From a virus: DNA of 28,357 nucleotides. The notes under the pieces were generated by a model that was given only the letters and a program-made list of their open reading frames with translations, searched no databases and had not been told where the DNA came from. Numbering within the stretch: the first letter of the stretch is position 1; each line of letters opens with the position of its first letter. The stretch is from IMG/VR virus record IMGVR_UViG_3300042449_000709, positions 1 through 28,357 of that record. The stretch is one strand, 5' to 3'. This document shows, in pieces, positions 10,618 to 12,935 of the stretch. The position numbers were made by a program, and so were the translations under genes.

Positions 10618-11030
10618 ACATACAACATCCCACAGCAAAGCAGGTTGCATACATCAGGCGCAACATCAACAAGAAGCCATTCCATGTTATGCGAAACGAA
10701 CTACGGGTAAGTGTAGGCGTCATGTACGAATGGGTAAAGAACGTATACCAACCCGATAAGCAGGTCATCGTGGACGAGGATGGGCAAGAGCTGCACAATG
10801 CCTATTTGGTTACGCTAAACGGCTTTAACTACATCGTCAACTTTAGCGTGGCGGTTGAATACCCAACTATCCAGTATTGCGGTCATCGCATTGGTTTCGA
10901 TTACGAGGTAAGCAAGTTAGGCTATTGGGAATATAACCACCTGCGCAACAACATACCCACCATTAATATCAAGACCGATGCGAACTATGTGGCTAACTTT
11001 TGGGCAACCACTAAACTATGGCACGAATGA
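10614..11030 (+). CDS. Hypothetical early protein with possible N-terminal HTH
   Basis: The 138-residue protein begins MNIQHPTAKQVAYIRRNINK, then KKPFHVMRNELRVSVGVMYEWVKNVY. The second part reads like a helix-turn-helix with a recognition helix 'VSVGVMYEWVKN'. The remaining ~85 residues are beta-rich (YLVTLNGFNYIVNFSVAVEYP) and hydrophobic without a membrane segment. The start has the duplicated GGAGG site. It overlaps the VRR-NUC gene by 13 bases. DNA binding is plausible only by this pattern. I do not recognise a family. Confidence 0.55.
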   Translation: MNIQHPTAKQVAYIRRNINKKPFHVMRNELRVSVGVMYEWVKNVYQPDKQVIVDEDGQELHNAYLVTLNGFNYIVNFSVAVEYPTIQYCGHRIGFDYEVSKLGYWEYNHLRNNIPTINIKTDANYVANFWATTKLWHE

Positions 11031-11389
11031 AGCATGACGAAAGCAAAATGCAGCAGCGATGTGTTGAGTGGTTTAGGTATTCCTTCCCTCGCACATTGAT
11101 CGCTTCCTTTCCTAACGGAGTATTCATTGGCGGTACACCGGTGCAACGTGCCAAACGCTGGAACATCTTGAAGGCAGAAGGTGCAATGCCTGGCATGCCC
11201 GATTTGATGATATGCATGGCATCGTCTGGACATCACGCACTGTTCATTGAGATGAAGACCGAAAAGGGAAAGCTTTCGGACACGCAGAAAATCGTTCACG
11301 CACAACTTATCAATGCAGGATACTGCGTGAAAGTGTGCAGGTCATTTGAAGAATTCACGCAAACAATTAAAAAATACTTAGAGCAATGA
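11018..11389 (+). CDS. VRR-NUC nuclease (PD-(D/E)XK)
   Basis: This 123-residue protein carries the VRR-NUC pattern: VEWFRYSFP near residue 16, then GMPDLMICM with Asp62, then FIEMKTEKGKLSDTQ with Glu78 and Lys80 (the ExK pair) and Gln90, and the terminal helix VHAQLINAGYCVKVCRSFEEF. VRR-NUC proteins are standalone nucleases of the restriction-endonuclease fold. Phage copies are common next to replication genes and are thought to cut branched or Holliday-type DNA. All key residues look present. The gene overlaps its neighbours on both sides (ATGA with the next). Confidence 0.85.
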   Translation: MARMKHDESKMQQRCVEWFRYSFPRTLIASFPNGVFIGGTPVQRAKRWNILKAEGAMPGMPDLMICMASSGHHALFIEMKTEKGKLSDTQKIVHAQLINAGYCVKVCRSFEEFTQTIKKYLEQ

Positions 11390-11808
11390 GCATCACGAAA
11401 AACAAATACATGAGTGCGCTTCAGTATATCTGCGCACAACCAACTTTCCATTCAAAGATTACCATGCGCCTGTTCAAGGTTAGCAATAACTTCCTTACAG
11501 CAGGCAAAGAGCTTGGCTTGTTCAAGAAGGTAGGCAAAAGCGAATACAAGTGGAACTTATCGCGACCGCCTTTGATGAGTGATGTGCAGGATATCCAAGT
11601 GCGTGTTCGGTCTTATACGCAGACGCATCGACTAAAAGCAAAACCATCACCGCAGCTAAAGCTCAAACCTCTTCGCAAAGCACCTGCACCTGCGCCCATG
11701 TCCGTAAACGCAGAGCCTGAATGCGACACTACCAATAGCAAGATGCTGTTGATACTTGGCGCAGGATTGCTCATCGGGTTTATGATTGCCACAATTATTT
11801 GGAAGTAG
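11386..11808 (+). CDS. Winged-helix-like N-terminus with C-terminal membrane anchor
   Basis: The 140-residue protein has three parts. Residues 1-57 (LQYICAQPTFHSKITMRLFK... TAGKELGLFKKVGKSEYKWNL) look like a small helix-turn-helix or winged-helix domain. Residues about 75-105 are Lys/Pro/Ala-rich (LKAKPSPQLKLKPLRKAPAPA), a flexible basic linker. Residues 119-139 (MLLILGAGLLIGFMIATIIW) form a transmembrane helix, ending the protein at the membrane. A DNA-binding domain tethered to the membrane is odd in a phage early operon and could attach phage DNA to the inner membrane. That role is inference. The gene ends just before a rightward promoter. Confidence 0.6.
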   Translation: MSITKNKYMSALQYICAQPTFHSKITMRLFKVSNNFLTAGKELGLFKKVGKSEYKWNLSRPPLMSDVQDIQVRVRSYTQTHRLKAKPSPQLKLKPLRKAPAPAPMSVNAEPECDTTNSKMLLILGAGLLIGFMIATIIWK

Positions 11809-11828
11809 AGATAGTTTGACTATCTTTG
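11798..11828 (+). promoter_or_regulatory. Rightward promoter, Bacteroidetes type
   Basis: TTTG at 11798-11801 is followed after 19 bases by TATCTTTG at 11821-11828, a full match to the TTTG/TAnnTTTG form. The start would be near 11834, at the first base of a long structured leader before the gene at 11936. Confidence 0.75.
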
Positions 11829-11832
11829 CAAC

Positions 11833-11931
11833 GCTAGTTCGTATGAAAACATTTTTAAATCCCATCTTCACTGCATTGCCATAAGCCATTCGGCTACGGA
11901 CTAGCCTTTGCATGTGAGGGTGGGTATTTAG
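11833..11931 (+). ncRNA. Structured 5' leader RNA (possible riboregulator)
   Basis: The 99-base stretch starts at the predicted transcription start. GCTAGTTCGTA (11833-11843) can pair with TACGGACTAGC (11895-11905), eleven pairs with one G-U. Separately, 11855-11875 can pair with 11909-11931 as a 21-pair helix with two single-base bulges (T913 and T925 in the last three digits). The two helices interleave, so they form a pseudoknot or mutually exclusive states. A smaller stem AGCC/GGCT lies at 11884-11895. The second helix ends four bases before the ATG at 11936 and would hide the start region. No known class is recognised. Confidence 0.6.
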
Positions 11932-11935
11932 TTTC

Positions 11936-12151
11936 ATGTATTATGACTATAAGAAATTTGCGGCGTATCCATACCCAAATAGATTTAGGGATTTAAAACG
12001 TCAAAACTTTGTTCAAATAGATCGCATTAACGGTGCTATTTTTATCTCATCTTATAGAGATACTGATGGCGAAGGTGTCCATGTCTTGATGACCGATTAC
12101 GAAGCAAATCAAATGCTGCTTCATCTTCAAAAATTACTTAATGAAAAATAA
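11936..12151 (+). CDS. Small hypothetical protein under the structured leader
   Basis: This 71-residue protein starts MYYDYKKFAAYPYPNRF and reads as a compact beta-rich unit (NGAIFISSYRDTDGEGVHVLMTD) followed by a C-terminal helix (YEANQMLLHLQKLL). It has no Cys pair, signal or membrane segment. The start codon lies four bases beyond the long leader helix, so translation may be controlled by RNA structure. The downstream replication gene starts at 12141, overlapping by 11 bases, so leader control could also affect initiator expression. No family recognised. Confidence 0.6.
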   Translation: MYYDYKKFAAYPYPNRFRDLKRQNFVQIDRINGAIFISSYRDTDGEGVHVLMTDYEANQMLLHLQKLLNEK

Positions 12152-12935
12152 TGGCTATTCATATTCGCGTGCATGGTTTGACTATGCATTTGAACACCCG
12201 GAGCAGGTGACTGCTTCGCATGGTATCTTGTATCTATGGCTCGTTGAGATAAATAATCGATTGGGGTGGGTTGACATCTTCCAAATTACAGCCAGTGAGT
12301 GCATGCAAGGTATGGGATGCAAAAGCTACAATACATACAAGAAGTGTTTTGACCAACTTGTTGAATGGGGCTTTGTTAAGGTGGTAAAGAAGGCAGTCAA
12401 TCAACACCAATGCAACATAGTTGCTCTATCAAAATTTGACAAAGCAAGTAACAAAGCACTTGACAAAGCACTGATGAAGCACTTGACAAAGCAAAGTGAA
12501 AGCACAGTACAAAGCAATGTTGAAAGCAACTGCGACATTCATAAACAAGTAAACAATAAACCACAAACCATAAACAATAAACGTAGTGCATTCGCACCCC
12601 CAAACGAAAATGATGTTTACAATTTTATGGGTGAGTATTCAGTACAAAAGCACATGCAGTGGACTGATGAAAAAATAAACACCGAGGCCGCGAAATTTTT
12701 TAACTACTACGAAGCCAATGGATGGAAGCAAGGTCGCAATCCGATGAAGGATTGGAAAGCGTCCGCACGCAACTGGATGGTAAATAACTCTAAATTCGAC
12801 AACTCAAATAACTCAAAAAACATAATTCAAGATGAAAGAGCAAAGCGCATTAGCGAACTTGAAGAGTTCCGCAAGCAATACCGAAGTGCAATTGCACGAG
12901 ATTTTGGCACGGAAAACATCACCAACCCTAGCTGA
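12141..12935 (+). CDS. Replication initiator / DnaD-like protein
   Basis: The 264-residue protein is divided into an N-terminal winged-helix-like part (residues 10-100: YSRAWFDYAFEHPEQVTAS, ITASECMQGMG, SYNTYKKCFDQLVEWGFV), a repetitive linker (about 98-150; KALDKALMKHLTKQSEST, then NNKPQTINNKR), and a C-terminal helical part with FNYYEANGWKQGRNPMKDWKASARNWM. That WK-x-G-R-x-P-M-K-x-W-x-x-x-x-R-N-W motif is typical of DnaD-like replication proteins in Bacteroidetes phages. The linker DNA contains iteron-like repeats and an AT-rich flank, as in the lambda O gene. The gene overlaps the next by 104 bases. Confidence 0.7.
   Translation: MKNNGYSYSRAWFDYAFEHPEQVTASHGILYLWLVEINNRLGWVDIFQITASECMQGMGCKSYNTYKKCFDQLVEWGFVKVVKKAVNQHQCNIVALSKFDKASNKALDKALMKHLTKQSESTVQSNVESNCDIHKQVNNKPQTINNKRSAFAPPNENDVYNFMGEYSVQKHMQWTDEKINTEAAKFFNYYEANGWKQGRNPMKDWKASARNWMVNNSKFDNSNNSKNIIQDERAKRISELEEFRKQYRSAIARDFGTENITNPS
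12436..12583 (+). other. Candidate replication origin: iteron-like repeats plus AT-rich flank
   Basis: TTGACAAAGCA occurs at 12436-12446, 12460-12470 and 12483-12493 (spacing 24 and 23). The last two copies share the 15-base GCACTTGACAAAGCA. Degenerate copies follow (TGAAAGCA 12497-12504, ACAAAGCA 12509-12516, TTGAAAGCA 12520-12528). Then 12541-12583 is about 74% A+T with almost only A and C on this strand, and carries AAACAATAAAC twice (12551-12561, 12572-12582). The layout resembles the lambda origin inside gene O. A coding repeat effect is the alternative. Confidence 0.5.

Follow-up and report, generated by a model that had tools for sequence, protein, structure and literature searches.

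A pseudoknotted leader RNA family in Bacteroidota phages upstream of replication-initiator and homing-endonuclease genes

The leader described in this study is a folded RNA of Bacteroidota phages that lies before many unrelated genes, above all those that start replication and those for selfish DNA-cutting enzymes. To judge by its shape, it may be a decision point at which transcription either halts or runs on into the gene behind it. It was found in a viral window of 28,357 nt (the whole stretch of DNA that was analysed), in which an earlier note had pointed to two long helices in front of a small gene.

Anatomy, conservation and novelty of the leader

In the window, the leader spans 11833-11935 (103 nt) and contains three helices, P1, P2 and P3, with the strand order P1a (11833), P3a (11857), P2 hairpin (11884-11895), P1b (11897) and P3b (11909). 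P1 and P3 are interleaved and form a pseudoknot. The features are as follows:

11798-11828, plus strand: Bacteroidota-type promoter, with the -33 element TTTG at 11798-11801 and the -7 element TATCTTTG at 11821-11828; sequence match and conserved spacing
11833-11841, plus strand: 5' strand of P1, pairing with 11897-11905; predicted first bases of the transcript
11843-11884, plus strand: short upstream ORF (MKTFLNPIFTALP, then a stop), whose AUG is kept in almost every relative and whose frame is not
11857-11875, plus strand: 5' strand of P3, with its partner at 11909-11929
11884-11895, plus strand: P2 hairpin (11884-11887/11892-11895), adjoining P1 and stacked; covariation
11897-11905, plus strand: 3' strand of P1; covariation in both sets
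11909-11929, plus strand: 3' strand of P3, terminator-like (GGGTATTT); covariation in both sets
11925-11934, plus strand: U-rich run (TATTTAGTTT) directly after the G-rich end of P3; T count against controls
11936-12151, plus strand: first gene after the leader, 71 aa, of no known family; replaced by other genes in relatives
12141-12935, plus strand: replication-initiator-type gene (PHROG 15768), overlapping the 71-aa gene; probable initiator function

Both long helices of the earlier note are readable from the sequence, namely a stem of 11 pairs (11833-11843/11895-11905) and a helix of 21 pairs (11855-11875/11909-11931) that carries two single-base bulges, U11913 and U11925, and ends four bases upstream of the ATG at 11936; the small hairpin P2 had been overlooked. 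The cores conserved in relatives are slightly shorter (9 pairs in P1 and 19 in P3), and P3 encloses a loop of 33 nt. Both P3 bulges recur in the main clade of relatives, and the first (U11913) is often absent from a divergent clade. The nested fold of the 103-nt leader was more stable than dinucleotide shuffles (z -3.5, 0/200; on repetition z -2.9, 1/200), and P1 was missing from this fold because P1 and P3 interleave.

Relatives were collected from IMG/VR with three protein queries, namely the initiator, the 71-aa protein and an upstream protein of 140 aa, and more loci came from pattern scans; in the fetched IMG/VR loci, blastn located the leader at 74-100% identity. Alignment A1 holds 60 distinct relatives of the main clade, and the divergent clade holds 35 sequences. 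Standard pairs filled 95.7% of cells in A1 and 79.4% after shuffling, which bears out the earlier expectation that pairing of this kind lies beyond chance. The covariation score of A1 was 0.473 as against 0.183 for shuffled alignments (0/500), and it was at most 0.097 when the partner strand was slid by 1-3 bases. P1 was paired in 99.6% of cells, as many as four pair types occurred at single positions, and 6 of its 9 pairs showed double-sided changes; the corresponding figures for pairing and double-sided changes were 95.4% and 8/19 pairs for P3, and 88.3% and 4/4 pairs for P2. Compensatory changes, the check that had been proposed for this leader, were thus abundant in all three helices, and the region is not part of any conserved gene. 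Moreover, a covariance model, R1, was built from P3 and P2, with P1 left out of the model used for alignment, and in the searched loci it separated members (E < 1e-6) from noise. In the divergent clade (n=35), P1, lying outside the model, was nevertheless paired in 98.4% of cells. A model-free covariation scan placed only pairs of P1, P2 or P3 among the top 13-14 of each set, and no alternative helix covaried in either set (A1, n=60; divergent clade, n=35). Of the earlier suggestion of alternative folds or a pseudoknot, the pseudoknot has therefore stood and the alternative folds have not. About 20 positions of A1 were invariant, several of them unpaired. UUGCC and CUUU are conserved unpaired stretches.

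No match above the gathering score of Rfam 15 was obtained in the window or in seven divergent loci, and the best chance match at a permissive threshold had an E of 2.7. A blastn search against cultured phages did not find a relative, and no description of such a leader was found in open-licence papers. The leader family thus appears to be a new RNA family, absent from Rfam, although an attenuator-type leader is of a known kind.

The pattern TTTG-N18-20-TANNTTTG has its sole match in the window at the promoter listed above. This match taken alone is not beyond chance; the spacing between the promoter and P1 is constant, and alignments A1 and A3 both show 4 nt from the -7 box to P1. In F. johnsoniae, 4-5 nt separate the -7 box from +1 (PMC6847099). 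Transcription probably starts at 11833, the first base of P1, and the promoter that the earlier note had placed upstream of the leader appears real by sequence, its spacing being conserved across the family. As in an attenuator, the leader would have its own promoter and a structure between the start and the first gene.

An AUG was present between P1 and P3 in 60/60 loops of A1, whose members were selected with ATGAA (a selection that dropped non-members only), and in 35/35 loops of the divergent clade, as against 11.7 and 7.8 expected; about one fifth of shuffled P1-P3 loops contained one. The distance from this AUG to P3 varies, all three frames occur, and the upstream ORF ranges from 4 to more than 60 codons, 13 being commonest; one leader of L135 and one of L038 have the four-codon ORF. 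A conserved leader peptide or a set of regulatory codons was ruled out, since frame and length are free. An AUG that is kept in a frame that is not argues for a role in ribosome binding rather than in making a peptide. At L254:4250-4939, the upstream ORF and the NUMOD4/HNH gene share a reading frame, so that the protein would gain a hydrophobic N-terminal stretch (CWVAFVLIAGIFI), and the upstream ORF of L225 is likewise in frame with the downstream gene.

At the other end of the leader, at least 6 T in 10 nt were found in 54/54 distinct elements, as against 3.5% of 719 control gene starts. These 54 elements came from protein-fetched loci and were located by their 5' half only; the recount was made on such loci because a pattern scan fixing GGGTNTTT had inflated an earlier count. 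The run is interrupted in the main clade (UAUUUAGUUUU). As in an attenuator, a stable helix, the covarying P3, is thus directly followed by a U-run. No covarying helix represents an alternative antiterminator fold.

Genes behind the leader and related layouts

Among about 120 matches, the downstream genes fell into 16 N-terminal families, so that at least 16 unrelated families are served. They include initiator-type proteins with differing N-termini, DUF6291, DUF4326, a helicase-methylase fusion, the 71-aa family and GIY-YIG proteins, and the Pfam matches of the downstream proteins were to HNH, GIY-YIG, NUMOD, AP2, T5orf172, endonuclease VII, DUF6291, DUF4326 or none. Of the 35 leaders of the divergent clade, 27 stood directly before homing-endonuclease-type genes with NUMOD4/HNH, AP2/HNH, GIY-YIG, T5orf172 or endonuclease VII domains. 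One P1 allele can precede several families (e.g., GCTAGTTCG before six), which indicates that leader and gene are exchanged freely. With at least 16 downstream families scrambled against leader alleles, product-specific autoregulation is unlikely as a general role.

Several further observations concern the neighbourhood of the leader. The initiator-type proteins behind it share a C-terminal domain (PHROG 15768) and have interchangeable N-terminal parts. A VRR-NUC nuclease gene (Pfam E 6e-12) lies two genes upstream of the leader in the window, at 11018-11389. Two leaders, always with different P1 alleles, occur per contig in L135, L207, L046, L038 and L197; in the first four, the helicase-methylase fusion follows one leader, and a gene that is small or of the DUF6291 type follows the second. 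In L139:313-1507 (reverse strand), a leader is followed by a GIY-YIG gene and an initiator, possibly an intermediate between the endonuclease-linked and initiator-linked forms. The viral contigs L216, L150, L178/L172 and L165 (G016, G018) have an end within the leader, which would be expected if assembly breaks at conserved copies whose neighbours vary.

In bacterial genomes, three stretches were found in GTDB contigs, of which only the match in a Bacteroidetes MAG was credible, and in the class of this MAG the leader occurred in 3/395 genomes. The family is almost confined to phages, and its near absence from bacterial genomes ruled out host gene regulation.

The best 80 relatives of one AP2/HNH endonuclease encoded behind a leader were also fetched, and 77 were scored. 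By eye, many of these genes had upstream interleaved helices that ended in U-runs and bore no similarity to R1. In an automatic interleaved-stem score, 18/77 were unequalled by any of 60 shuffles, as against 5/150 other gene starts (Fisher 5.7e-6); one of the 18 was an R1 member, L286. At least 6 U in 10 followed the second helix in 61% of the 18, 3% of unstructured endonuclease loci and 0% of controls. Since the scan had been prompted by inspection of the same AP2/HNH set, it was repeated on NUMOD4/HNH genes, where the helix excess was weaker (11/78 versus 9/195, p 0.01) and the U-run excess was not significant. In some of these phages, a ribosome-binding-site-like sequence was seen by eye after the U-run; the upstream AUG is not a general feature of the non-homologous endonuclease leaders. 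Examples without similarity to the window leader are L311, L339, L308, L305, L360 and L457 (L286-L365, upstream of position 1501; L379-L458). L339:2640-2830 holds a second interleaved pair, TGACAATGAA...TTCATTGTCA and CTCATCGG...CCGATGGG followed by CTTTTTT, before another gene. Cultured relatives of the endonuclease mostly overlapped the preceding gene and had no leader, and the two gaps seen upstream of such relatives held ordinary terminators or a plain hairpin. A wider reading, which we put forward tentatively and regard as rather doubtful, is that phages of several host groups share a hitherto undescribed class of pseudoknotted, terminator-ended leaders that is linked to homing endonuclease genes, travels together with them and was co-opted for replication genes. 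Its role may then lie in gene mobility, as an RNA partner or a timing device, and not be that of an ordinary attenuator.

A proposed attenuation mechanism and its alternatives

The reading that we favour, to which we give about an even chance, is that the leader is a portable promoter plus transcription attenuator, in which the terminator lies within the pseudoknot and could be prevented by early ribosome loading at the AUG. The helices, the U-run, the spacing of the promoter, the AUG kept in a variable frame and the swapping of downstream genes are observed in the sequences; termination, ribosome binding as antitermination, the physiological signal and the direction of control are proposed from sequence. 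Transcription would start at the first base of P1. In undisturbed nascent RNA, P1 would close once its 3' strand emerges and hide the region before the upstream AUG, P3 would close across P1 to give the pseudoknot, and P3 with the U-rich run would act as an intrinsic terminator just upstream of the coding gene; most transcripts would end as RNAs of about 100 nt, and the downstream gene would stay low. A ribosome that occupied the 5'-proximal AUG before P1 and P3 formed would cover P1a and the foot of P3a, no terminator would arise, and transcription would continue into the 71-aa gene and on through the replication genes that follow. P1 would thus be part of a co-transcriptional race and P3 the terminator, and the signal may be translation capacity or infection stage. 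Because no antiterminator helix covaried, the ON state is assumed to depend on a ribosome or a protein.

Attenuation is favoured by the promoter before P1, by the interleaving of P1 and P3, and by a U-run that is shared while a ribosome-binding site may follow it. Since such a site seems to follow the U-run in some phages, start-site occlusion is unlikely to be the shared function, and the gate more probably works by terminating transcription at P3 and the U-run than by occluding the start codon. The earlier idea that the structure gates the downstream gene therefore fits the evidence, whereas translation as the gated step fits less well than termination. Several features speak against an attenuator, namely the interrupted U-run of the main clade, a 33-nt P3 loop that exceeds that of a textbook terminator, and the position of the end of P3 close to the start codon, from which occlusion of translation would also result. 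The four-codon upstream ORFs, the AUG that many endonuclease leaders outside the family do not share and the absence of a covarying antiterminator helix also count against it. Like leader-peptide attenuators, the leader combines a promoter, an early AUG and a terminator-like helix before a gene; unlike them, it has no conserved peptide, run of regulatory codons or covarying antiterminator, and the competing P1 is interleaved as a pseudoknot.

The main rival, which we consider unlikely, is a translational gate, in which the pseudoknot forms on full-length mRNA and the foot of P3 blocks the 30S subunit at the downstream start until P3 is opened by a protein, by an RNA or by translation of the upstream ORF, in an arrangement like that of RepY-RepZ. 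In RepY-RepZ of IncI/IncB plasmids, a pseudoknot serves to activate translation, with an antisense RNA as the inhibitor. The present leader resembles this system in having a short leader ORF and a pseudoknot before a replication initiator, but its ORF frame is not conserved and its family also serves non-replication genes. Occlusion would agree with the fact that P3 stops a few nt short of the start codon in almost every member, with the conserved upstream AUG, and with the finding that structure near the start lowers initiation in Flavobacterium (PMC6847099). However, the U-run is conserved beyond what such a gate needs, helix and U-run precede the ribosome-binding site in non-homologous leaders, and neither the frame nor the length of the upstream ORF is conserved.

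Phage T4 gives this rival further support, since hairpins that cover the ribosome-binding site silence its homing endonucleases (PMC2988022). Among these T4 genes, I-TevI, mobE and segB have hairpins, mobE and segF have internal terminators, and seg43(25) has a hairpin before its ribosome-binding site (PMC2988022). In both cases, phage homing endonuclease genes would be held down by a 5' RNA structure or a terminator. The T4 hairpins are simple and mutually unrelated, whereas the present leaders form a conserved family of three-helix pseudoknots, with their own promoter and a terminator-like 3' helix, that also precedes replication genes.

The second rival, less probable still, is a gene for a non-coding RNA of about 100 nt, stable, pseudoknotted and ending at the U-run, that would act in trans by binding a nuclease, RNA polymerase or the ribosome, as type III antitoxin RNAs do, with the gene behind it expressed by read-through. 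Its own promoter, compact structure and terminator-like end before nuclease-type genes are consistent with this, as are the conserved unpaired UUGCC and CUUU. The order of promoter, structured RNA, terminator and nuclease-type gene is also that of type III toxin-antitoxin systems and AbiF RNA (PMC12373285). Nevertheless, the leader is a single unit without tandem repeats, no ToxN or Abi_2 protein accompanies it, and one RNA core precedes HNH, GIY-YIG, endonuclease VII, initiator, helicase and small genes. No toxin of the ToxN/AbiQ/CptN type was present among the Pfam matches behind the leader. A type III antitoxin was ruled out, as there is one unit per leader and no single protein partner.

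A metabolite riboswitch, with the pseudoknot core as aptamer and P3 as expression platform, is very improbable. The invariant positions, several of them unpaired, would suit an aptamer, and a compact pseudoknot with a terminator-like helix is a common riboswitch build; yet the downstream genes share no pathway, the same topology occurs without conserved bases before endonuclease genes elsewhere, and no Rfam riboswitch was matched. HDV-like ribozymes possess P1.1 pairs and a catalytic C followed by A in the J4/2 strand. The leader shares their strand order (P1a, P2a, hairpin, P1b, P2b), but self-cleavage is hardly credible and was ruled out, as inspection shows neither P1.1 nor a C-N-A-A joining strand (the alignment has C-U-U(U)), the second helix is much longer and has two bulges, the probable transcription start is the would-be cleavage site, which leaves nothing to cleave, and Rfam gave no match.

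Significance for Bacteroidota phages

To our knowledge, cis-acting RNA in Bacteroidota phages has hardly been charted. Bacteroidota hosts do not use Shine-Dalgarno sequences, a point that bears on how their phages time gene expression. The leader is a portable RNA module with unusually strong covariation that serves at least 16 unrelated gene families. Moreover, its link to endonucleases and the same layout in unrelated leaders suggest a general way in which selfish endonuclease genes may carry their own expression switch.
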